From NCBI GenBank assembly GCA_025463265.1, contig JAOBWH010000109.1:1-64000 (forward strand): a DNA stretch of 64,000 nt, given 5' to 3'. Shown here piece after piece: positions 2,421 through 16,856 of this stretch (its first letter is position 1; each line of letters begins with the position of its first letter). Source of the stretch: Ilumatobacteraceae bacterium. GTDB lineage: Bacteria; Actinomycetota; Acidimicrobiia; Acidimicrobiales; Iamiaceae. Below the pieces are notes generated by a model. The model ran no database searches. It saw only the letters and a list, made by a program, of their open reading frames with translations, and was not told where the DNA came from. The position numbers were made by a program, and so were the translations under genes.

Positions 2421-3737
2421 TCAGGCGAGCAGGGCGGTGGCGACCCGGTCGAGGCCGGCGGAGCGGCTGGCCTTGACCAGGACCACATCGCCGTCGCCGA
2501 GGCCCAGTTCACGCAGACGGGCCACCGCCGCGTCGACGTCGGCCGCTGCGTCGTCGCCCTCGACCCGGTACCAGGGCTGGTCGACGGTGATCAGGTGGAT
2601 GCCCAGCTCCCGGGCGAGCACGGCGATGGCGTGGTGCTCAGCCGCCTCGTCGGGGCCCAGCTCCGCCATGGTCCCGAGCACGGCGAAGCGCCGCTGGGCC
2701 GGCAGCTCGTCGATGGAGCGCAGCGCCGCCGCCATGGAGGTCGGGTTGGCGTTGTAGCTGTCGTTCAGCACCCGCTCGCCTCCAGCCGCGGTGACGAGGT
2801 CCATCCGCAGGGCCGAGAGGCGGGCCCCGCCGAGGCCGACGACCACCTGGTCGAGGGGCACGCCGAGCGCCAGGCCTGCGGCGGCCGCACCGAGGGCGTT
2901 CACCACCTGGTGGCGGCCGGCGATGGCGAGGTGCACGTCGGCGTCGCCCCAGGGGGTGCGCAGGGAGAAGGTGGGGTGCAGGTGCTCGTCGAGCGACACG
3001 CCGGTGGCCCGCACCTCCCCCGCCTCCTGCCCGAAGGTGAGGACGGTGGCGTCGGTGCGCTCGGCCATGGCGGCCACCCGGACGTCGTCGGCGTTGAGCA
3101 CGGCGGTCCCGCTGGCCGGCAGGGAGGCGACGAGCTCGCCCTTGCCCCGGGCGACCTCCTCGATGCTCCCGAACTCCGACAGGTGGACGCCCGCCACCAC
3201 GGTGACCACGCCGACGGTCGGCCGGCCGATCTCGCACAGGCTGGCGATGTGGCCCACGCCGCGGGCGCCCATCTCGAGGACCGTGCACTCGGTGCCGTCC
3301 GGCGCGTTGGCCAACGTGAGCGGCACGCCCAGCTCGTTGTTGAACGAGCCGGTGCTGGCCGTGGTGGCGAACGTGGTGGCGGCCACCGAGGCCAGCAGGT
3401 CCTTGAGGGAGGTCTTGCCGACGCTGCCGGTGATGCCCACCACCCGGTCGCCCAACCGGGCCCGAGCCGCGAGGCCGATGGCCCGCAGTCCGGCCGCGGT
3501 GTCGGCGACCTTCACGGCGGTGCCGGCCTCGATGGGCCCCGACGTCAGGTACGCCGACGCCCCCGCGCCCAGCGCGGTGCCGATGAAGTCGTGCCCGTCC
3601 CGCTCCGCCACCAGGGGGACGAACAGCTGGCCGAGCTGGACGAGCCGCGAGTCGATGGCGACCCCGTCGACCTCGGTCTCCCGCCCGAACACCTCGCCAC
3701 CGGTGGCCTCGGCGAGCGCTGACGTCGTGAACCGCAT
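2421..3737 (-). CDS. murF: UDP-N-acetylmuramoyl-tripeptide--D-alanyl-D-alanine ligase
   Basis: A 438-residue Mur ligase that adds D-Ala-D-Ala to UDP-MurNAc-tripeptide in the cytoplasm, the last soluble step of the peptidoglycan precursor. The N-terminal substrate domain (IDSRLVQLGQLFVPL) is followed by the ATP loop GITGSVGKTSLKD, the central domain with TVLEMGARGVGHI, and the C-terminal domain with LNDSYNANPTSM. Length is normal for MurF. It is divergent from ddl, whose product makes its substrate, across 41 bp. A TACGGT hexamer (minus strand, 3745-3750) lies 7 nt before the ATG, which suggests a leaderless transcript. The other mur genes are not in this window. Confidence 0.95.
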   Translation of the reverse strand: MRFTTSALAEATGGEVFGRETEVDGVAIDSRLVQLGQLFVPLVAERDGHDFIGTALGAGASAYLTSGPIEAGTAVKVADTAAGLRAIGLAARARLGDRVVGITGSVGKTSLKDLLASVAATTFATTASTGSFNNELGVPLTLANAPDGTECTVLEMGARGVGHIASLCEIGRPTVGVVTVVAGVHLSEFGSIEEVARGKGELVASLPASGTAVLNADDVRVAAMAERTDATVLTFGQEAGEVRATGVSLDEHLHPTFSLRTPWGDADVHLAIAGRHQVVNALGAAAAGLALGVPLDQVVVGLGGARLSALRMDLVTAAGGERVLNDSYNANPTSMAAALRSIDELPAQRRFAVLGTMAELGPDEAAEHHAIAVLARELGIHLITVDQPWYRVEGDDAAADVDAAVARLRELGLGDGDVVLVKASRSAGLDRVATALLA

Positions 3738-3778: not shown

Positions 3779-4864
3779 ATGAGCGAAGCGCCCAAGCCCG
3801 TCCGCATCGTCCTGCTGTACGGCGGGCAGTCGGCCGAGCACGAGGTGTCTCGGATCTCGGCGGCCAGCGTGCTCAAGGCCATCGACACCAGCCGCTACGA
3901 CGTGGTCCCCGTCGCCATCACGCCGGACGGGCGCTGGCTGCGCTCCGACGCCACCCTCGAGCTGATGGCCGACGCCACCCGGCCGCTGCCGGAGTCGCTC
4001 GACGCCAGCGGCACCGACCTGGCGCCCCTCGCCAGCATCGCCCCGGCCCACCCGGACCAGCAGGTGGTGGTCCTGCCCATCCTGCACGGCCCCCGGGGCG
4101 AGGACGGCACGGTGCAGGGCCTGCTCGAGCTGGCCGACGTGGCCTACGTGGGCGCCGGCGTGCTCGGCTCCGCCCTCAACATGGACAAGGCCACGGCCAA
4201 GGTGGTCGCCCGGGCGGCGGGCATCCCGGTGTGCCGGTGGATCTCGGCCCGGGACTCGGAGCTCGACGATGCGTTCGTGGCCCGGGTGGGCTCCGAGCTG
4301 GGCTGGCCGGTGTTCGTGAAGCCCTCGAACATGGGCTCATCGGTCGGGGTGACCAAGGCGGACGACCCCGCCGGCCTGCGTGCCGCGCTCGCGGAAGCCG
4401 TGAAGTACGACGAGTGGGTGGTGGTCGAGGAGGCCGTGGTGGGCGCCCGCGAGCTCGAGGTCGGCGTCATGGGCAACGAGGAGCCCCGCGCCTCGGTGGT
4501 GGGCGAGATCATCCCCACCCACGAGTTCTACGACTACGAGGACAAGTACGTCGACGGCACGTCGCAGATGGTGATCCCCGCGGACGTCCCCGGCGAGGTC
4601 GCCGCAGAGATGCGGGCCCTGGCCGTGCGGGTGTACCGGGCCCTGCGCTGCGACGGGCTGTCCCGGGTCGACTTCTTCTACGAGGCCGACGGACGGGGCC
4701 TGCTGTTCAACGAGATCAACACCATGCCCGGCTTCACGAAGTACTCGATGTTCCCGTCGCTGTGGGACGCGAGCGGACTCCCCTACGCCGAGCTGATCGA
4801 TGAGCTGGTGCGCCTCGCCCTGGCCCGCCACCAGCACCGGGCCTCGCACCGCCGCCTCCGCTGA
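3779..4864 (+). CDS. ddl: D-alanine--D-alanine ligase
   Basis: A 361-residue ATP-grasp enzyme that joins two D-alanines for the peptidoglycan stem peptide. Typical Ddl motifs are visible in order: LLYGGQSAEHEVSRISA at the N-terminus, GPRGEDGTVQGLLEL, KPSNMGSSVGVTKA in the ATP-grasp domain, and FNEINTMPGFTKYSMFP at the magnesium and substrate site near the C-terminus. Length matches the family. It pairs functionally with the divergent murF. Its stop codon is 3 bp from the stop of the convergent small gene downstream. Confidence 0.96.
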   Translation: MSEAPKPVRIVLLYGGQSAEHEVSRISAASVLKAIDTSRYDVVPVAITPDGRWLRSDATLELMADATRPLPESLDASGTDLAPLASIAPAHPDQQVVVLPILHGPRGEDGTVQGLLELADVAYVGAGVLGSALNMDKATAKVVARAAGIPVCRWISARDSELDDAFVARVGSELGWPVFVKPSNMGSSVGVTKADDPAGLRAALAEAVKYDEWVVVEEAVVGARELEVGVMGNEEPRASVVGEIIPTHEFYDYEDKYVDGTSQMVIPADVPGEVAAEMRALAVRVYRALRCDGLSRVDFFYEADGRGLLFNEINTMPGFTKYSMFPSLWDASGLPYAELIDELVRLALARHQHRASHRRLR

Positions 4865-5215: not shown

Positions 5216-5830
5216 CTAGGGAGCCTGCAGCGAGGTGGTGAGCGATGCGATGAGCGCGCCACGCCGGTCCCGGAGCCAGGCCAGGTCGGCCGGGAGGCCC
5301 AGGTCGGCGCGCACCTCGGCCTCGGTGGCGATGCCGACCACCCGGGCCCCGGCGGCGAGGAGCACCCGGCGGATGCGGACATCGTCGACCCGTCCGGAAG
5401 GGGACAGGACCGATGAGGCGGTGGCGACGAGCGGGTCAGCCGCCCGAGCGAGGTGGGTGGAGGCCGGCGGGCCGAGGCGGGCCACCTCCCGGACCACGGC
5501 GAGCAGCTCCGGGCGGATCGATCCCAGCCGGAACGTGGCGTCGACCACCGCGGTGATCTGGCCGACGAGGTCGGTCCCGCCGGAGACCGCGGCGAGCGAC
5601 AGGACCCGGCCCAGCTCGTCGACCGCGTGGTCGACGACACCGAAGAGCAGCTGCTCCTTGGACGGGAACCAGTACAGGAGCGTCTGCTTGCGGACGCCGA
5701 CCTCGGCGGCCACGGAGTCCAGCGACGTCGCCTCGACCCCCCGCTCGGCGAAGGCCGCGAGGGCGGCGGCGAGGATCCGCTCCCTCGTGCTGGGCGCCAT
5801 CGCGGCTGCTGCCTCGCTCACGGCCGTCAT
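5216..5830 (-). CDS. TetR/AcrR family transcriptional regulator
   Basis: A 204-residue one-component repressor. Residues about 12-60 form the helix-turn-helix region: TRERILAAALAAFAERG, then SLDSVAAEVGVRKQTLLYWF, the classic TetR recognition helix followed by PSKEQLL. The C-terminal ligand domain is not assignable. I start it at ATG 5830; a second ATG at 5800 (MAPSTRERI) is possible. The gene is divergent from the acyl-CoA reductase operon across 37 bp that contain an inverted repeat, so it probably represses both itself and that operon. The ligand may be an acyl-CoA or lipid, by analogy with other regulators beside such genes; that is inference. Confidence 0.92.
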   Translation of the reverse strand: MTAVSEAAAAMAPSTRERILAAALAAFAERGVEATSLDSVAAEVGVRKQTLLYWFPSKEQLLFGVVDHAVDELGRVLSLAAVSGGTDLVGQITAVVDATFRLGSIRPELLAVVREVARLGPPASTHLARAADPLVATASSVLSPSGRVDDVRIRRVLLAAGARVVGIATEAEVRADLGLPADLAWLRDRRGALIASLTTSLQAP

Positions 5831-5843
5831 GGTCGCACAGTTC

Positions 5844-5859
5844 TCTACCAAGTGGTAGA
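5844..5859. promoter_or_regulatory. Inverted repeat TCTACCA-AG-TGGTAGA, likely TetR operator
   Basis: Two perfect 7-bp arms flank a 2-bp spacer in the 37-bp gap between the TetR gene and the reductase operon. The right arm overlaps a TANNNT-like hexamer (TAGACA, 5856-5861) placed 6 nt before the operon's GTG start, so bound repressor would cover the promoter. On the minus strand the left arm gives TAGAGA, near the tetR start. Position and symmetry are as expected for an autoregulated TetR switch. Confidence 0.7.
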
Positions 5860-5867
5860 CAGAACCG

Positions 5868-8219
5868 GTGATCGCCGACGACCTGGCCGGGAAGCGCATC
5901 GCCGTCACCGGCTCCACCGGATTCCTCGGGACGGCGCTGGTCGAGCGCCTCCTGCGCTCGGTGCCCGACTGCGAGCTGGTCCTGTTGATCCGCGCCGGGC
6001 GCATGCGCAACGTGGAGCAGCGCGCCCAGCGGGAGATCTTCAAGAACAACTGCTTCGACCGGCTCCGCGACGAGCTCGGGGGCAAGGCCCCGTTCGACGA
6101 ACTGGTCGACCGCCGCGTCCAGATCGTCGAAGGCGACGTCGGCACCGACGGCCTCGGCCTCACCGAGACCGGCCGGGAGCTGCTCGCCTCGTGCGACGTC
6201 GTGATCCACTCGGCCGCCACCGTCAGCTTCGACTCGCCGCTCGACCTCGCCGTCGAGGTGAACCTCCTCGGACCCACCCGCATCGCCCTCACGTTCCAAG
6301 ACCTCGGGGTCGCGCCCCACCTCGTCACCGTGTCCACCTGCTACGTCGCCGGTCACCGCCGCGGGGACGCACCAGAGATCCGGGTCGACGAGAGCCCGTT
6401 CTGGATCAGCGACATCAACTGGAGGCGGGAGGTGGAGGGCGCTCGCCGCGTGCGAGCCGACGCCGAGGCCGCCAGCCGCAAGCCCGACCAGCTGGCCACG
6501 TTCATGGTCGCGGCCCGCAAGGAGCTCGGCGGAGCCGGCACCCCCCTGCTGGCCACCAAGTCCGAGCAGCTCCGCCAGGAGTGGGTGAAGGCCCAGCTGG
6601 TCGACGCCGGCCGGGCCCGGGCCACCAGCCTCGGCTGGCCCGACGCCTACGCCTACACCAAGGCCCTGGGCGAGAAGGCCCTTGCGGAGAACCGCGGCGA
6701 CGTCCCCGTCAGCGTCGTCCGTCCCGCCATCATCGAGTCGGCGTGGGCCGAGCCCGTGCCGGGCTGGATCCGTGGCTTCCGCATGGCCGAGCCGGTGATC
6801 ATCAGCTACGCCCGCGGCCTGCTCACGGAGTTCCCGGGGGTGCCCGAGGGGACCGTCGACGTGATCCCGGTGGACCTGGTGGTGGGCGCCATCATCGGCG
6901 TCGCCGCCCGCGGCCCGTCCAACGAGGACGGCTCGCCCGACATCACCCAGGTCGCCTCCGGCTCCGCCAACCCGCTCAAGTACGAGCGTCTGGTGGAGCT
7001 GGTGCAGGGCTGGTTCAGCGAGCACCCGCTGTACGACGCCTCCGGCCAGCCCATCGCCGTGCCGGACTGGGGCTACACCACCCGCAACCGGGTCCAGGGC
7101 CAGCTGGAGCGGGCCAAGGGGCTGCTGGAGCGGACCGAGTCGGTCATCGGCGCCCTCCCCCTCCGCGGCAAGCAGGCGGCCTGGTCGGCCAAGATCGAGG
7201 AGCAGCGCGACACGGTGAGCCGAGCGCTGACCTACGTCGAGCTCTACGGCGCCTACACCGCCTGCGAGGCGATCTACGGCGTCGACCGGCTCCTGGAGCT
7301 GCAGGACTCGCTGGCGCCCAGCGACCAGGTGGACTTCTCGATGGATCCGCGCATCGTGGACTGGACGCACTACGTGCACCAGATCCACCTCCCGTCGGTG
7401 GTCGAGCACGCCCGGGTCCGCACGGACGGCAAGCGGGGCCGGGGCGAGTCGCGCGAGACCCGCCTGCGCCGCCAGGTCCTCGCACCGGAGCGCCAGCTGG
7501 CCGCGTTCGACCTCGAGAACACGCTCATCGCCTCGAACGTGGTCACGTCCTACGCCTGGCTCGCCTCCCGCCGCCTCGATCGCGACGACAAGCTCCGGCT
7601 CACCGCCAAGCTGATCGGCGAGGCCCCCGGCCTGCTCAGGATGGACCGGGCCGACCGCAGCGACTTCCTGCGCTCGTTCTACCGCCGCTACGAGGGCGCC
7701 TCGGTGCAGCAGATCCAGGAGGACTCGGCCGAGATGCTCTCGCAGCTGATCTTGACCAAGAGCTTCCCCGCCGCCATCCGCCGGGTGCGCGAGCACCGGG
7801 CCCTCGGCCACCGCACGGTGCTCATCACCGGCGCCCTCGACTTCGTGGTGGCGCCGCTGAAGCCGTTGTTCGACGACATCGTGTCGGCCTCGCTGGCGGT
7901 GGGCGACGACGGGCGCTACCTCGGCCAGATGGTCGACGTGCCCCCCACCGGCGAGAGCCGGGCATCGGCGCTGTTCGCCTACGCCGCCCGCCACGACATC
8001 GACCTGGCGGAGTCCGTGGCCTACGCCGACTCGTCGAACGACCTCCCCATGCTCGAGGTCGTCGGCTTCCCCGTCGCGGTCAACCCGGAGACCCGCCTCG
8101 CCAGCCTCGCCCGCAAGCGCGGATGGCTGGTCGAGCAGTGGTCGAAGGCACCCGGCTTCAAGCCGAGCCCCATCCCGCTGGCGCCCACCCGCACCGTCGC
8201 CAAGGCGGCGCCGCGGTGA
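5868..8219 (+). CDS. Fatty acyl-CoA reductase-like SDR fused to HAD-IB phosphatase
   Basis: A 783-residue two-domain protein. Residues 1 to about 500 are an extended SDR of the male-sterility/fatty acyl-CoA reductase type: NAD(P) loop GSTGFLG at 15-21 and catalytic Y261-x3-K265. Residues about 540-760 are a HAD subfamily IB phosphatase: motif I FDLENTLI (nucleophile D548), motif II region VLITGALDF, motif IV YADSSNDLPM (about 719-728). Motif I has Glu at 550 where most HAD phosphatases have Asp, which may alter catalysis. The first domain should reduce an activated acyl group; the second should dephosphorylate a phospho-substrate. GTG start at 5868 without Shine-Dalgarno; its end overlaps the next gene as GTGA. 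Confidence 0.88.
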   Translation: MIADDLAGKRIAVTGSTGFLGTALVERLLRSVPDCELVLLIRAGRMRNVEQRAQREIFKNNCFDRLRDELGGKAPFDELVDRRVQIVEGDVGTDGLGLTETGRELLASCDVVIHSAATVSFDSPLDLAVEVNLLGPTRIALTFQDLGVAPHLVTVSTCYVAGHRRGDAPEIRVDESPFWISDINWRREVEGARRVRADAEAASRKPDQLATFMVAARKELGGAGTPLLATKSEQLRQEWVKAQLVDAGRARATSLGWPDAYAYTKALGEKALAENRGDVPVSVVRPAIIESAWAEPVPGWIRGFRMAEPVIISYARGLLTEFPGVPEGTVDVIPVDLVVGAIIGVAARGPSNEDGSPDITQVASGSANPLKYERLVELVQGWFSEHPLYDASGQPIAVPDWGYTTRNRVQGQLERAKGLLERTESVIGALPLRGKQAAWSAKIEEQRDTVSRALTYVELYGAYTACEAIYGVDRLLELQDSLAPSDQVDFSMDPRIVDWTHYVHQIHLPSVVEHARVRTDGKRGRGESRETRLRRQVLAPERQLAAFDLENTLIASNVVTSYAWLASRRLDRDDKLRLTAKLIGEAPGLLRMDRADRSDFLRSFYRRYEGASVQQIQEDSAEMLSQLILTKSFPAAIRRVREHRALGHRTVLITGALDFVVAPLKPLFDDIVSASLAVGDDGRYLGQMVDVPPTGESRASALFAYAARHDIDLAESVAYADSSNDLPMLEVVGFPVAVNPETRLASLARKRGWLVEQWSKAPGFKPSPIPLAPTRTVAKAAPR

Positions 8220-9379
8220 AGGCGCTGCGGTTCTCCCGCAAGCCGGGCCGGTACGTCGCCGCCGGCGTGGCCGGTCGCCTCGCCGCCGGCAAGGGCGCGT
8301 CGGTCGGCCCGCTCAAGCTGGTCGACGTCGACGACCTGAAGCTCCCCGCCGACGACTGGGTGCGGCTGCGGCCCCGCCTGGCCGGCATCTGCGGGTCGGA
8401 CCTGGCCACCATCGACGGCCACTCGAGCCGGTACTTCGAGCCCATCGTCTCGTTCCCGTTCACGCCCGGCCACGAGGTCGTCGGCGACCTCGAGGACGGC
8501 TCCCGAGCGGTGCTCATCCCCATCCTCTCGTGCGTCACCCGGGGCATCGACCCCATGTGCGGCGCCTGCTCGGCCGGACGGACGAACCGGTGCGGCCGCA
8601 TCGCCTTCGGGCACCTCGAGCCGGGCCTCCAGACCGGGTTCTGCGCCGACACCGGCGGCGGGTGGTCCGGCGAGCTGGTCGCCCACCCGAGCCAGCTGCT
8701 CCCGGTCCCCGAGGATCTGAGCGACGAGGCCGCGGTCATGGTCGAGCCCCTCGCGTGCGCCGTCCACGCCGCCCGCAAGGTCGCCGCCTCCGGTCCGCAC
8801 CAGCGCATCGCCGTCATCGGATCGGGCACCCTCGGGCTGCTCACCATCGCCGCCCTGCGCAGCGAAGACCCGTTCGGCACCATCATCGCCACCGGCAAGT
8901 ACCCGCATCAGCAGGGCCTGGCCAAGGCGCTCGGCGCAGACCAGGTGGTCAGCCCCCGCACGCTCCCCCGCGTCGTCCGCAGCCTGACCGGGGCGTTCGT
9001 GCTCGACGGCGGGCAGCTCACCGACGGCGTCGAGGTGGTGGTCGACTGCGTGGGCAGCGAGGCCAGCCTCACCCAGGCCCTCCAGGTGGTGGCACCCGGC
9101 GGGCAGATCGTCGTCGTCGGCATGCCCGGCCACACCGCCCTCGACCTCACGTCGCTGTGGCACCGCGAGAGCACCATCTCGGGCTGCTACGCGTACACCC
9201 GGTCGGACTTCGAGCGGGCGCTGGAGCTGGCGCAGGAGCATGATCTCGGCCGCCTGGTCAGCGCCACCTACCCGCTCAGCCGCTCCACCGAGGCCATCGA
9301 GCACGCCGCCAACGCCGGAGCGCGCGGCGCCGTGAAGATCGCGTTCGACCTCCGCAAGCCGGCCAAGGCCAAGCGATGA
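8216..9379 (+). CDS. Zinc-dependent medium-chain alcohol dehydrogenase
   Basis: A 387-residue MDR-family enzyme. Catalytic zinc ligands are C59 (GICGSD) and H86-E87 (GHEVVGD); a structural zinc lobe is formed by C106, C115, C118 and C126. The Rossmann domain carries VIGSGTLGLL. It should oxidise an alcohol or reduce an aldehyde with NAD(P). Next to an acyl-CoA reductase an alcohol/aldehyde step is plausible, though the substrate is unknown. The GTG start overlaps the previous stop (GTGA) and its own stop overlaps the next ATG (ATGA), so translation is probably coupled. The N-terminal region about residues 10-30 is longer than usual for the family. Confidence 0.9.
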   Translation: MKALRFSRKPGRYVAAGVAGRLAAGKGASVGPLKLVDVDDLKLPADDWVRLRPRLAGICGSDLATIDGHSSRYFEPIVSFPFTPGHEVVGDLEDGSRAVLIPILSCVTRGIDPMCGACSAGRTNRCGRIAFGHLEPGLQTGFCADTGGGWSGELVAHPSQLLPVPEDLSDEAAVMVEPLACAVHAARKVAASGPHQRIAVIGSGTLGLLTIAALRSEDPFGTIIATGKYPHQQGLAKALGADQVVSPRTLPRVVRSLTGAFVLDGGQLTDGVEVVVDCVGSEASLTQALQVVAPGGQIVVVGMPGHTALDLTSLWHRESTISGCYAYTRSDFERALELAQEHDLGRLVSATYPLSRSTEAIEHAANAGARGAVKIAFDLRKPAKAKR

Positions 9380-9849
9380 GCCCGCGCCTCGGCCCCGAGC
9401 CCACCAAGTACAAGAAGCTGCGAGCACCGGTCGACATCGTCCGGTCCTTCTGGGAGCGCCTGGAGGCACGCGACTGGGACGACGCCCGAGCGCTGCTCGC
9501 CGACGACCTCGTGGTCCTCTGGCCCGCCACCCGCGAGCGGTTCGAGGGCGCCGACACGTTCATGGCCCTCCAGCAGGCGTATCCCGGCGACTGGCACATC
9601 AGCGTCGAGGTCGTGCACGCGGACGGCCGCGAGGTCCTCGCCTGGGTCGAGGTCCGCATCGGCGAGACCCTCTCCATCTGCGCCCAGCGCGCCACCGTCA
9701 CCGACCGGCTCATCCGCTCGTCGATCGAGCTCTGGGTCGACGAAGGCGAGATCACCCCGCCGGGGTGGCGCGCCGACGTCATGGCCCGCATCGACCGCAC
9801 CGCCGGCTCCACCACCGAGCCCGTCCCTGCTCTGAACGAGGAATCCTGA
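9376..9849 (+). CDS. SnoaL/NTF2-like fold protein
   Basis: A 157-residue protein with a SnoaL-type cone fold pattern: an initial helix (VRSFWERLEARDWDDARALL), then ADDLVVLWP and later beta strands ending at SIELWVDEGEI. Members are isomerases, cyclases, hydratases or accessory proteins, and the fold alone does not give the reaction. It is coupled by overlap to both neighbours (ATGA before, TGATG after), so it is made with the dehydrogenase and the LarA-like protein. It may act on the same small-molecule intermediate or stabilise a partner. Confidence 0.75.
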   Translation: MSPRLGPEPTKYKKLRAPVDIVRSFWERLEARDWDDARALLADDLVVLWPATRERFEGADTFMALQQAYPGDWHISVEVVHADGREVLAWVEVRIGETLSICAQRATVTDRLIRSSIELWVDEGEITPPGWRADVMARIDRTAGSTTEPVPALNEES

Positions 9850-11441
9850 TGCCCCGTCCCGGTTTCGTGCTCGACGTCGACAAGTCGACGCCGCCCATCC
9901 TCTTCCACCACGGCGAGGGCTTCCGACTCGAGAAGCTGCCCGCCGACCGCACGCGCGTGATCTACCCGGGCGAGCCGCTCGACGCCCTCGACGACGTCGA
10001 CGCCGAGATCCAGCGCGCCCTGCTCGACCCCCTCGACATGGATCCCCTGCCGACGCTGCTCACCCCCGGCATGAAGCTGACCATCGCGTTCGACGACGTG
10101 TCCCTGCCCCTGCCGCCCATGAAGCGGCCCGACATCCGCCAGCGGGTCATCGAGGCCGTCCTCGACATGGCCGCCACCGCAGGCGTCGACGACGTCCACC
10201 TCATCGCCGCCCTGGCCCTGCACCGACGCATGACCGAGGACGAGCTGCGCCACGCCGTCGGCGACCGGGTCTACGACGCCTTCGCCCCGCAGGGGGCGCT
10301 CTACAACCACGACGCCGAGGACCCCGACAACCTGGCGTTCCTGGGCGAGACCAAGCACGGCGAAGAGGTCGAGATCAACAAGCGGGCCGCCGAGTCCGAC
10401 CTGTTGATCTACGTCAACATCAACATCGTCTCCATGGACGGCGGCCACAAGAGCACCGCCACCGGCCTCGCCAGCTACCGGTCCATCAAGCACCACCACA
10501 ACGTGCACACGATGGAGCACTCGAAGAGCTTCATGGACCGCCACAACTCCGAGCTGCACCACAGCAACTGGCGGATGGGCAAGGTCATCGCGGACGCCGG
10601 CGTCAAGGTCTTCCAGATCGAGACCACCATCAACAACGACACGTTCGGCGACGCCCTCCCCATGTCCGTGCTGGCCAAGCGCGAGTGGGAGTGGTCGGGC
10701 AAGGACCGGGTGGCCTTCGTCGGCATGCAACAGGGCCTCAAGCGCCTGCCCGCGTCGACCAAGCGCAAGATCTTCCAGGGCCACCGGGCGCCCTACGGCG
10801 TCACGTCGGTCTCCGCCGGCGCCATCGAGCCGGTGCACGAGAAGACCCTCCAGCACTGCTTCGACCAGCACCTGGTCGAGGTCGAGGGCCAGACCGACAT
10901 CCTCACCATGGGGCTGCCGTACATCTGCCCCTACAACGTGAACTCGATCATGAACCCGATCCTGGTCATGTGCCTGGGCCTCGGGTACTTCTTCAACATG
11001 TACCGGGGGAAGCCGCTGGTCCGCGAGGGCGGCGTGCTGATCATGACCCACCCCACGCCGTGGGAGTTCCACCCGGTCCACCACCCCAGCTACATCGACT
11101 TCTTCGAGCAGGTCCTGGCCGACACCACCGACCCCAAGGAGATCGAGCAGAAGTGGGAGAAGCAGTTCGCCGAGGACGAGTGGTACCGCCACCTGTACCG
11201 GACGAGCTACGCCTACCACGGCGTCCACCCCTTCTACATGTGGTACTGGGGCTCGCACGCGCTGAAGCACCTGGGTCGGGTGATCATCGTCGGCGGCGAC
11301 AAGCGGGCGGTCCACCGCCTCGGCTTCAAGGCCGCCTCCACCCTCAACGACGCCTTCGAGATGGCCGAGGACGTGGTCGGCCGCCACCCCACCATCACCC
11401 ACCTCAAGAACCCGCCCATCGTCATGGCCGACGTCAAGTGA
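9849..11441 (+). CDS. LarA-like protein (lactate racemase N-terminal/DUF2088 family), divergent
   Basis: A 530-residue protein with a LarA-type N-terminal domain: FDDVSLPLPPMKRPDIR (D82-D83), ALALHRRMTEDELRHAVG (H125), and MDGGHKSTATG (K201). In characterised LarA the lysine of a GGxK motif binds the nickel-pincer cofactor, and K201 is in the matching place. The histidine that normally precedes this motif in LarA (PHxxxG-type) is not evident here; the segment reads VNINIVSMDGGHK. The C-terminal half is rich in His, Trp and Tyr (HPVHHPSY, YMWYWGSHALKH) and looks specialised. LarA relatives racemise or epimerise 2-hydroxy acids. Cofactor genes larB, larC and larE are not in the window. The 1-nt overlap TGATG links it to the SnoaL gene. 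Confidence 0.75.
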   Translation: MPRPGFVLDVDKSTPPILFHHGEGFRLEKLPADRTRVIYPGEPLDALDDVDAEIQRALLDPLDMDPLPTLLTPGMKLTIAFDDVSLPLPPMKRPDIRQRVIEAVLDMAATAGVDDVHLIAALALHRRMTEDELRHAVGDRVYDAFAPQGALYNHDAEDPDNLAFLGETKHGEEVEINKRAAESDLLIYVNINIVSMDGGHKSTATGLASYRSIKHHHNVHTMEHSKSFMDRHNSELHHSNWRMGKVIADAGVKVFQIETTINNDTFGDALPMSVLAKREWEWSGKDRVAFVGMQQGLKRLPASTKRKIFQGHRAPYGVTSVSAGAIEPVHEKTLQHCFDQHLVEVEGQTDILTMGLPYICPYNVNSIMNPILVMCLGLGYFFNMYRGKPLVREGGVLIMTHPTPWEFHPVHHPSYIDFFEQVLADTTDPKEIEQKWEKQFAEDEWYRHLYRTSYAYHGVHPFYMWYWGSHALKHLGRVIIVGGDKRAVHRLGFKAASTLNDAFEMAEDVVGRHPTITHLKNPPIVMADVK

Positions 11442-11454
11442 GGGGCGCTGACTG

Positions 11455-12420
11455 ATGGGCCACGAGAAGGGGTTGGAGAAGGTCGCATCTTCGGTGCGGG
11501 CGGCTCGGGCAAAGGTGCCGCCGGTGCGCGCCCTGGTGGCCCAGACCACGTTCCCGTACCGGGCCCCGACCACGCCGCTGACGGTTGAGCCCAAGCCGGC
11601 GGAGCAGAAGCTGCTCGGGCACTACGACTCGGGCTGGGCCCGCAAGCTGCCCGCCCGCTACGCCCGGTTCTTCCTCACCGAGGGGGTGGTCCGCCCGGTC
11701 ATCGCCGGCCTGGCCCAACCCGAGCGCAGGGGCCTCGACCGCCTGGCCGACCTCGACGGGCCGGTCATCTTCGCCGCCAACCACCACAGCCACCTCGACG
11801 CCGGCCTCCTCATCACCTCGCTGCCCGAGCCGCACCGCCACCAGGTGTTCGCCGCCGCGGCGGCCGACTACTTCTTCGACACCCGGGTGAAGGCCACCGC
11901 CTCGGCCCTCGTGCTCAACGCCATCCCGATCGAGCGCACCAAGGTCGGGCGCCGCTCCGCCGACGAGGCCGCTGGGCTCATCGACGACGGTTGGTCGATG
12001 ATCATCTTCCCCGAGGGGGGCCGCTCCCCCGACGGCTGGGGCCAGCCGTTCCGCGGCGGAGCCGCCTACCTGGCCATCCGCTGCGGCGTCCCCGTCGTTC
12101 CGATCCACCTCGCCGGCACCGGCCGCATCCTGCCCAAGGGGAAGAACCGGCCGAAGCCCCAGCGCACCGTCGTCACGTTCGGCAGCCCGATCCGGGCGGA
12201 CGAGGGCGAGCGGTCCCAGGCGTTCTCGGACCGCATCGAGTCCGCGGTCGCCGCCCTGGCCGACGAGGCCACCACCGACTGGTACTCCGCCCGCCGCCGC
12301 GCCGCAGCCGGGGAGACGCCCGCCCTGGCCGGTCCCCAGTCCGGAGCGTGGCGCCGCACCTGGGCCCTCACCGCGAACCGCAAGCGGCCCTCCACCGCCA
12401 AGCGGTGGCCCGAGCTCTGA
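11455..12420 (+). CDS. 1-acylglycerol-3-phosphate acyltransferase-like protein (PlsC family)
   Basis: A 321-residue membrane-associated acyltransferase. The catalytic box is NHHSHLD (HxxxxD) and the substrate box is FPEGGRSPDG, both typical of PlsC/LPLAT enzymes that transfer acyl groups to lysophosphatidate or related alcohols. It closes the operon, 13 bp after the LarA-like gene. With an acyl-CoA reductase, a phosphatase domain and an alcohol dehydrogenase upstream, it points to synthesis of a modified glycerolipid, ether lipid, diol lipid or wax-type product; the exact product cannot be deduced. The N-terminal 90 residues and the basic C-terminus exceed the minimal PlsC core. Confidence 0.9.
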   Translation: MGHEKGLEKVASSVRAARAKVPPVRALVAQTTFPYRAPTTPLTVEPKPAEQKLLGHYDSGWARKLPARYARFFLTEGVVRPVIAGLAQPERRGLDRLADLDGPVIFAANHHSHLDAGLLITSLPEPHRHQVFAAAAADYFFDTRVKATASALVLNAIPIERTKVGRRSADEAAGLIDDGWSMIIFPEGGRSPDGWGQPFRGGAAYLAIRCGVPVVPIHLAGTGRILPKGKNRPKPQRTVVTFGSPIRADEGERSQAFSDRIESAVAALADEATTDWYSARRRAAAGETPALAGPQSGAWRRTWALTANRKRPSTAKRWPEL

Positions 12421-15017: not shown

Positions 15018-16856
15018 ATGGGGAGCAGGAGCCGGTGGGCACTCGTCGGGATGGTCGCGGTCGGGATCGCCGCCGGGGCGGCGGCCTGCTGGTCCGGCAC
15101 CGACGAGAAGCAGCCGGCGGCGTCGGAGCCGTCGGGCGCATCCGTCTACGAGTCGAACTGCGCCACCTGCCACGCCGCGGACGGCAGCGGCGGCCAGGGG
15201 CCGGCCATCGGCGACGGCAAGGCCGCAGCGACGTTCACCGAGGCCGAGATGATCGAGCTGGTCAGCAACGGGAAGAACGCCATGCCGGCGTGGAAGGGCC
15301 GGCTCACCGACCTCGAGATCGCCCGGGTCGTGGGCCACGTCCGCGACGACCTCGGCCGCGATGCGCCGAACGGCGGCGGCACCACCACGACCGGCGCCGA
15401 GGGCAGGCGGGGCACGCTGTCCGGTGTGCCTCCGGAGCTGGAGGTCGACGGCGACTGGGCCATCGCCAACGGCGACTACGCCTCCACCCGGGCGGCGACC
15501 GACTCCCCCATCACCTCGGAGACCGTCGACGACCTGGAGCTGGCGTGGACCTACGAGGCGGAGGGAGGCGGCACCTTCGGCAACCTCACCACCACGCCGC
15601 TCGTCGTGGGCGATCACGTCTACCTGGGTGCCCTCACCACCGAGGTCCACGCCATCGACCGCGAGACCGGGGAGGGCGAGTTCGTGGTGGGCGGCGAGGT
15701 GGGGATCTTCGGGCCCACCGGCGTCGGCGTGGGCTGGGGGCAGCTCTACGGCACCAAGGCGGACGATGCGGGCGACGGCTCGGTGGTCGTGGCCTACGAC
15801 GCCGAGACGGGCGAGGAGGTGTGGGCCACCGACGTCGGCGAGCACGGGGGCATCGTCAACATGCAGCCGTCGGCCTACGACGGCCTCGTCTTCGCATCCA
15901 CCTCCGGCTACGGGAACGGGACGATCGCGACCATCTACGCACTCGACGCCGAGACCGGATCGATCGTGTGGGACTTCCCGGTGATCGACGACCCGGATCT
16001 GTGGGGCGACCCGGAGCTCAACAGCGGCGGCGGCGTCTGGTACCCGCCGGCCATCGACACCGAGCGCCGCATCGCCTACTTCGGCACCGGCAACCCGTAC
16101 CCGTTCCCCGGTGCCGAGGGCTTCCCCAACGGCTCGAGCCGGCCCGGCGACAACCGGTGGACCGACTCCACCGTGGCCCTCGACATCGACACCGGGAAGC
16201 TGGCGTGGGGCCACCAGGCCATCGCCCACGACATCTTCGACCGGGACAACATGCTCGCCGCCCGCACCTCCATCGGGGTCGACGGGACGGAGCGCGACGT
16301 CGTCATCAGCTCGGGGAAGCTGGGCGTCGTCTACGCCCTGGACGCCGAGACCGGCGAAGAGATCTGGTCGACGCCGGTGGGCACGCACCAGAACGACGAG
16401 CTGACCGAGATCGACGGGCCGACGCTGGTGTACCCGGGCTCGCTCGGCGGCGTCCAGACCCCGCTCGCCGTCGCCGACGGGACGATCTACGCCTGCGTCA
16501 TGAACGCCCCGACCGAGTACGAGGGGCCGGAGGAGACCAGCTACGGCTTCACCGTCCAGCTGGGCAAGGCCGACAGCCAGATGGCGGCGATCGACGCCGA
16601 CACCGGCGAGATCCGGTGGGAGGTCGACCTGCCCGGCGATTCGTTCGGCGGATCCACCGTGGCGGGCGATCTGGTGTTCACGTCATCGTTCGGCGGCGAG
16701 ATCCTGGCTCTCGACGCCGAGACCGGCGAGACGGTCTGGAGCTACGACGCGCCCGGCGGCATCAACGGGTGGCCGGCCGTGGCGGGCGACGAGCTGTACG
16801 TCCCGGTCGGGATGGCCGACCCGCCGGTGCTGTTGAAGTTCGAGCTGCCCGCCTGA
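15018..16856 (+). CDS. Exported cytochrome c - PQQ-type beta-propeller fusion lipoprotein
   Basis: A 612-residue protein. A lipoprotein signal ends at Cys24. It is followed by a c-type cytochrome domain with CATCH (C48, C51, H52) and a likely sixth ligand M89 (KNAMPAW). From about residue 150 there is an eight-blade-type PQQ propeller with repeats such as YALDAETGEEIW and LALDAETGETVW. Quinohaemoprotein dehydrogenases usually have the cytochrome at the C-terminus; here it is N-terminal. It may oxidise an alcohol or sugar outside the membrane and pass electrons to the respiratory chain, or it may be a non-catalytic propeller. TAGGGT (15004-15009) lies 8 nt before the ATG. Confidence 0.85.
   Translation: MGSRSRWALVGMVAVGIAAGAAACWSGTDEKQPAASEPSGASVYESNCATCHAADGSGGQGPAIGDGKAAATFTEAEMIELVSNGKNAMPAWKGRLTDLEIARVVGHVRDDLGRDAPNGGGTTTTGAEGRRGTLSGVPPELEVDGDWAIANGDYASTRAATDSPITSETVDDLELAWTYEAEGGGTFGNLTTTPLVVGDHVYLGALTTEVHAIDRETGEGEFVVGGEVGIFGPTGVGVGWGQLYGTKADDAGDGSVVVAYDAETGEEVWATDVGEHGGIVNMQPSAYDGLVFASTSGYGNGTIATIYALDAETGSIVWDFPVIDDPDLWGDPELNSGGGVWYPPAIDTERRIAYFGTGNPYPFPGAEGFPNGSSRPGDNRWTDSTVALDIDTGKLAWGHQAIAHDIFDRDNMLAARTSIGVDGTERDVVISSGKLGVVYALDAETGEEIWSTPVGTHQNDELTEIDGPTLVYPGSLGGVQTPLAVADGTIYACVMNAPTEYEGPEETSYGFTVQLGKADSQMAAIDADTGEIRWEVDLPGDSFGGSTVAGDLVFTSSFGGEILALDAETGETVWSYDAPGGINGWPAVAGDELYVPVGMADPPVLLKFELPA

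Follow-up and report, generated by a model that had tools for sequence, protein, structure and literature searches.

What pathway would join acyl reduction, a LarA-type enzyme and glycerolipid acylation in one operon? The question is raised by a locus in a 64,000-nucleotide stretch of DNA (the window; contig JAOBWH010000109.1 of assembly GCA_025463265.1, from an Ilumatobacteraceae bacterium of the Actinomycetota). Here, a fatty acyl-CoA reductase (FAR) fused to a HAD domain, a zinc-dependent medium-chain dehydrogenase/reductase (MDR), a SnoaL-like protein, a homologue of the racemase LarA and a PlsC-type acyltransferase are encoded on one strand, next to a divergent tetR gene (Table 1). A preliminary description of the window proposed that these genes constitute an undescribed lipid pathway leading to a diol, ether, 2-hydroxy or wax-type lipid, in which the LarA-like protein would determine the configuration of a hydroxy acid or alcohol. 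We consider it likely that the operon encodes a fatty-alcohol-based glycerolipid pathway that includes a nickel-pincer nucleotide (NPN) enzyme. Whether that pathway ends in an alkyl ether lipid in particular, made independently of alkylglycerone-phosphate synthase (AGPS) and with an NPN enzyme that does not racemize, we regard as an evenly balanced question.

To determine how widely the arrangement is conserved, we used the LarA protein as query against named genome contigs and obtained 80 loci, nearly all labelled as Acidimicrobiia, Acidimicrobiales or unclassified Actinomycetota. Of these, 52 had at least 5 kb of upstream sequence, and 75 had enough 3′ sequence for the downstream side to be scored. 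The nearest named relatives are Aquihabitans, whose LarA is 92% identical. FAR-HAD lies upstream of LarA in 52/52 informative loci and PlsC directly downstream in 75/75, counts that are not independent because the loci are kin to each other and were all retrieved by way of LarA; synteny of this extent is far beyond chance. A divergent tetR gene is present in 41 of the 52 loci. SnoaL was found in a single one of them, and we therefore ruled it out as a pathway step. The unit of FAR-HAD, MDR and LarA, mostly together with PlsC, is also kept in families farther away within the phylum, where LarA identity is 54 to 63%.

The same association was seen across whole genomes. In a sample of 396 Actinomycetota genomes, LarAH14/15/16 proteins (counted above the family cut-off) were present in 86, and 84 of these 86 also carried FAR-HAD (Fisher p, 7e-71, uncorrected for kinship). 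Just 7 genomes had FAR-HAD without a counted LarAH14 match; most of the 7 are incomplete, and one has a LarA fragment. Given this co-occurrence and the small number of exceptions, we take FAR-HAD to be a marker of the LarA operon pathway rather than a general fatty-alcohol enzyme. That the synteny stays so tight between distant lineages speaks for enzymes that act in sequence. Thus, the co-occurrence whose absence would have refuted the preliminary description holds for FAR-HAD, LarA and PlsC, holds in part for MDR (see below), and fails for SnoaL, which we removed from the pathway set. LarAH14 was not found in plasmid records. The typical operon also appears in records titled Acidobacteria (L075) and Bifidobacterium breve (L032), which are probably mislabelled or misbinned metagenome-assembled genomes (MAGs).

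By sequence, the LarA-like protein belongs to the LarAH14/15/16 family, since it scores above the 740-bit cut-off of the NCBIfam HMM NF052592, yet its predicted active site places it outside the racemases. We mapped its residues by alignment to the single-His LarA 9q2u and by an alignment of 122 homologues. H125 corresponds to the catalytic His108, K201 to the NPN-tethering Lys184 and H217 to the Ni ligand His200, each kept in at least 99% of the 122; D83, corresponding to Asp72, is also conserved among them. The second catalytic His (His174) is replaced by an invariant Asn192, as placed by a gapped sequence alignment, and Leu86 occupies the position of an Arg75 (or Lys) that contacts the NPN phosphate/substrate carboxylate (PMC12611868). 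A structure model of the protein is closest to the single-His LarA 9q3k (TM, 0.76/0.83; about 24% identity in the structural alignment). His174 is missing in LarA groups 14 and 15, whose members may act without inverting a stereocentre (PMC7583248, PMC12611868), and a Frankia group-14 enzyme was positive for none of seven hydroxyacid activities tested (PMC7583248). Given the missing second His and Arg75 equivalent, a role as a lactate or hydroxyacid racemase is not supported, and the stereochemical function first proposed for the protein was set aside. NF052592 groups 14/15/16 share the Lar_N domain, the catalytic His, the NPN Lys, the Ni His and the loss of the second His with the single-His LarAs of Blautia and Streptococcus (9q2u, 9q3j and 9q3k). 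The two sets differ in context, which is lipid synthesis here and glycolysis there, and in the Leu86 found here at the Arg75/Lys76 position. A literature search found no link between DUF2088/LarA and lipids.

A second LarA group (L129 to L132), with roughly 36 to 43% identity, occurs without the FAR-HAD operon. One of its members (L130) is preceded by a CoA-transferase family III gene (PF02515).

We examined the supply of the NPN cofactor. In the window genome, LarB and LarC are adjacent on contig C181 and LarE is on C172; nothing convincing in the way of additional pathway genes was seen in the LarBCE neighbourhood of this genome. Within the class, LarC occurs in 19 of the 21 operon-bearing genomes and in 0 of the 17 that lack the operon, and the operon LarA is the only LarA match found in each of those operon-bearing genomes. 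Because LarC tracks the operon and no other LarA matches were found, NPN synthesis is apparently kept for the operon LarA.

The domain assignments made earlier (FAR/HAD, alcohol dehydrogenase, SnoaL, LarA-like and PlsC) were each confirmed by HMM, and we asked which catalytic residues are retained. The best PDB match of FAR is the fatty acyl-CoA reductase 7eoz (4.8e-62), and the YxxxK residues (Y261 and K265) are invariant (73/73); the C-terminal Sterile domain (PF03015) is matched at 7e-6 with 26.6 bits, below the cut-off of 35.4. The Asp nucleophile and the motif IV acidic pair of HAD-IB are kept in 83/83. MDR has as its nearest PDB entries the ketose reductase 1e3j and xylitol and sorbitol dehydrogenases, with the catalytic zinc ligands C59, H86, E87 and E177 invariant in 75/75. 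In PlsC, the HxxxxD and EGxR residues are invariant in 110/110.

A variant of the gene set bears on the lipid backbone. One distant family (f25) was identified as Rubrobacteraceae because two of its genomes (G041 and G011) encode mannosylphosphoglycerate synthases that hardly differ from PDB 3f1y, which we take to be a Rubrobacter xylanophilus protein. In 10/10 loci from ten genomes of this family, the genes run PlsY, FAR-HAD, MDR, LarA along one strand. PlsY abuts FAR-HAD on the upstream side (TIGR00023 is above cut-off in both PlsY proteins tested), and PlsC was not detected in the Rubrobacteraceae stretches examined (10 loci). In the window operon, by contrast, the acyltransferase is a PlsC that follows LarA rather than a PlsY that precedes FAR-HAD, and there is a dedicated TetR as well as a SnoaL. 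PlsY is a glycerol-3-phosphate acyltransferase. Since two unrelated acyltransferases of phospholipid synthesis, PlsC and PlsY, serve the same gene set, a glycerol-phosphate backbone is argued for. In three Rubrobacteraceae loci (L117, L118 and L136; L117:11804-12394, minus strand), a protoglobin gene (PF11563) lies between MDR and LarA.

Rubrobacterales are also of interest for their lipids: about 46% of their core lipids are reported to be ether linked (PMC10821996, citing doi 10.1016/j.syapm.2023.126404). The operon FAR is the only FAR at an E value of ≤1e-20 in Rubrobacter G041 and G011. An AGPS-like protein was not seen in Rubrobacter G041, G011 and G053, where the PF02913 proteins checked are glycolate-oxidase or D-lactate-dehydrogenase-like (for one of the three G041 proteins, by family resemblance only). 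The DUF2229 domain of Ger/PlsA was absent from ten genomes tested, Rubrobacter included, and we therefore ruled out the anaerobic Ger/PlsA route for those genomes. Sinninghe Damsté et al. reportedly described, in their 2023 work on the mixed ether/ester lipids of Rubrobacterales, a putative 1-O-alkyl glycerol phosphate operon resembling the elb type of myxobacteria. That operon could be the Rubrobacter PlsY-FAR-HAD-MDR-LarAH14 set. Hence, "undescribed" is too strong a word for the pathway as a whole: the LarA family is already in NCBIfam, and the 2023 paper may mention the Rubrobacter version. Even if that version is already in print, it would be extended here by the distribution in Acidimicrobiia, the association with NPN genes, the family with Asn in place of the second His, and the PlsC/PlsY exchange.

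We compared the operon with known systems of ether lipid synthesis. The elbA-E and MXAN_1676-1674 operons of Myxococcus xanthus serve alkyl ether lipids/plasmalogens (PMC9131029). Like the window operon, they combine a FAR domain, a HAD, an acyltransferase of AGPAT/GNPAT-like type and a dehydrogenase dependent on NAD(P), and the organisms are aerobic in both cases. The window operon differs in lacking ACS, ACP and AGPS, in the fusion of FAR to HAD and in having a zinc MDR where the myxobacterial operons have SDR-type proteins. Its central conserved gene encodes a LarA-family NPN enzyme, for which the elb descriptions consulted name no counterpart. We conclude that the operon resembles the elb/AGPS operons in its set of activities, yet is not one of them. 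With the aerobic mammalian route (FAR1, GNPAT and AGPS) it has in common a FAR and a glycerolipid acyltransferase, with AGPS here outside the operon. Neither AGPS nor an ElbD with ACS/ACP domains is among the operon genes. An AGPS-like gene is found elsewhere in the window genome, on contig C34 (best PDB matches, 2uuu and 4bby), and such genes are also found in Acidimicrobiia relatives that lack the operon. AGPS as a hidden, operon-specific partner was ruled out on these grounds and because it was not seen in the Rubrobacter genomes checked.

From what was observed directly (the structure and conservation of the genes, their co-occurrence with one another and with cofactor genes, the active-site residues that are retained, and the PlsC/PlsY exchange), we infer an ether-lipid product and the following reactions. 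The FAR domain would reduce acyl-CoA to a fatty alcohol, and PlsC, or PlsY in Rubrobacteraceae, would acylate a glycerol-phosphate backbone. On the acylated backbone, LarA would use its tethered NPN and single catalytic His for a hidden-redox step without stereoinversion. MDR, where present, might supply or reduce (or oxidize) a keto or secondary-alcohol intermediate, for example one like alkyl-dihydroxyacetone phosphate, and the HAD domain would act in a phosphate step. The end product would be a 1-O-alkyl glycerolipid. A bolder version, to which we assign a low probability, is that LarA itself forms the ether bond and so replaces AGPS. NPN would then take the C2 hydride of acylated glycerol phosphate, the resulting ketone would permit loss of the acyl group by beta-elimination, the fatty alcohol would add, and the same hydride would be returned to the same face. 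Overall, one group would be substituted for another with configuration retained, much as S-adenosylhomocysteine hydrolase works, and one catalytic His would be enough for this.

Several observations weigh against an alkyl ether pathway of this kind. MDR is present in 26 of the 52 Acidimicrobiia-type loci and thus absent from half. The HAD acid/base motif is DxE in 76/83 and DxD in 7/83, and the motif III Lys is Arg in 83/83; because of the DxE and the Arg, phosphatase activity of the HAD domain is doubtful or may be altered. Two nearly complete operon-bearing MAGs, G263 and G294 (loci L154 and L155), have neither LarC nor LarE, with LarA ligands intact; missing contigs or salvage are possible explanations. 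The closest relatives with a single-His LarA site have genes of glycolysis as neighbours (PMC12611868). In the window organism, AGPS could still form the ether, since an AGPS-like gene is present in its genome, and the ethers of Rubrobacter could stem from other genes, such as one for a FAR-less ElbD-like protein. For the operon-bearing Acidimicrobiia, an ether product is predicted from gene content. Lastly, we know of no NPN enzyme that acts on lipids.

Other lipids could be built from the same genes. In a 2-hydroxy-fatty-acid or 1,2-diol lipid, LarA would act on a 2-hydroxyacyl group, FAR would yield the diol and PlsC would acylate it. The characterized LarA homologues do use 2-hydroxy acids (PMC7583248, PMC11770544), and FAR plus an acyltransferase would fit a diol lipid. 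However, the invariant Asn in place of the second His, the loss of the carboxylate-binding Arg to Leu86 (PMC12611868), and the negative Frankia enzyme speak against hydroxyacid chemistry, a hydroxylase is not among the conserved neighbours, and the Rubrobacter PlsY implies a glycerol-phosphate backbone. We consider this lipid unlikely. The polyol and ketose dehydrogenases nearest to MDR suggest instead a glycolipid, in which LarA and MDR would build a sugar or sugar-acid head group and FAR and PlsC would attach the fatty chains; in the single-His LarAs with glycolytic gene neighbours, a bound ligand was modelled, speculatively, as a phosphorylated aldose (PMC12611868). A glycosyltransferase, a kinase and a nucleotidyltransferase are not among the most widely conserved neighbours, however, and PlsY and PlsC point to glycerol phosphate, so that a glycolipid also seems improbable to us.

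We judge storage of fatty alcohols or wax esters to be quite improbable. Here, FAR would make the alcohol, PlsC would esterify it, and LarA and MDR would serve a side branch. Wax ester synthesis does begin with a FAR, and genes for neutral-lipid synthesis are common in Acidimicrobiia (PMC10351704), but LarA is linked to FAR-HAD as tightly as any gene, and a wax pathway needs no LarA. Moreover, WS/DGAT is not among the annotated conserved neighbours, and the substrate of the Rubrobacter PlsY is glycerol-3-phosphate, not an alcohol. There is a similarly slight chance of some other fatty-alcohol glycerolipid (neither alkyl ether nor diol nor wax), or of a route for lipid remodelling or salvage, in which LarA would catalyse an unrelated small-molecule reaction. 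The reaction of LarAH14/15/16 is not established, which leaves room for such a route; the distant conservation of synteny, with its implication of sequential steps, argues against it. Hence, the lipid pathway of the preliminary description stood in its acyl-reduction start and its glycerolipid acyltransferase and lost its racemase, and an alkyl ether is the best supported of the products it listed.

An alkyl ether pathway with an NPN enzyme would tie together two questions, that of aerobic bacterial ether-lipid synthesis, which is largely unsolved, and that of the LarAH14/15/16 reaction. If it is correct, nickel-pincer chemistry would extend from small hydroxy acids to lipids; if LarA forms the ether, lipid metabolism would gain its first NPN enzyme and the LarA superfamily a new type of reaction. 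The four enzymes are a small set for reconstitution. The gene set also predicts which Actinomycetota should hold fatty-alcohol-derived lipids, which is useful for environmental ether-lipid biomarkers.

The structure of the locus supports a single transcription unit of five genes under its own TetR. As the preliminary description had stated, and as the coordinates confirm, the genes are joined by a GTGA overlap between FAR-HAD and MDR (8216-8219), an ATGA overlap between MDR and SnoaL, a TGATG overlap between SnoaL and LarA (9847-9851) and a 13-bp gap between LarA and PlsC. The divergent TetR with a symmetric operator was likewise borne out, by the TetR_N HMM and by a palindrome whose arms read TCTACCA and TGGTAGA around AG. 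The palindrome TCTACCANNTGGTAGA recurs in the tetR/FAR gap of many relatives. In 5 of 7 genomes scanned, there is one exact copy of the operator per genome, at this operon. No further regulon members were found through the operator in the 7 genomes, where the three one-mismatch sites inspected appear to be intracoding.

Table 1. Features of the operon and its flanks in the window
Feature	Position	Strand	Details
MurF-like	2421-3737	-	just 5′ of tetR
D-Ala-D-Ala-ligase-like	3779-4864	+	just 5′ of tetR
Reading frame of 112 aa	4868-5206	-	between ddl and tetR; coding-type GC3
TetR-family regulator	5216-5830	-	divergent; PF00440 (TetR_N) 2e-13
TetR operator (predicted)	5844-5859		TCTACCAAGTGGTAGA; 7-bp arms, 2-bp spacer; between tetR and FAR
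FAR-HAD fusion	5868-8219	+	GTG start; NAD_binding_4 7.6e-54, HAD 3.1e-27
FAR-HAD domain layout	aa 1-525; aa 543-755		fatty acyl-CoA reductase (NAD_binding_4); HAD-IB
Zinc-dependent MDR, polyol-dehydrogenase-like	8216-9379	+	ADH_N/ADH_zinc_N; ADH_zinc_N 8.6e-23
SnoaL-like protein, accessory	9376-9849	+	SnoaL_2 3.4e-10
LarA homologue, LarAH14/15/16 family, single catalytic His	9849-11441	+	Lar_N PF09861 7e-41; NF052592 917.8 bits
PlsC/AGPAT-family acyltransferase	11455-12420	+	PF01553 3.9e-19
CxxCH haem motif, then apparent PQQ-dehydrogenase-type repeats	15018-16856	+	3′ of operon

The flank that holds the MurF-like and ddl-like genes carries gene clusters that occur in 45 and 36 related loci, and because these recur, the operon probably lies at an ancestral chromosomal site. 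On the 3′ side, an aconitase-family gene follows the operon in 37 related loci (for example, L008:13870-16152).

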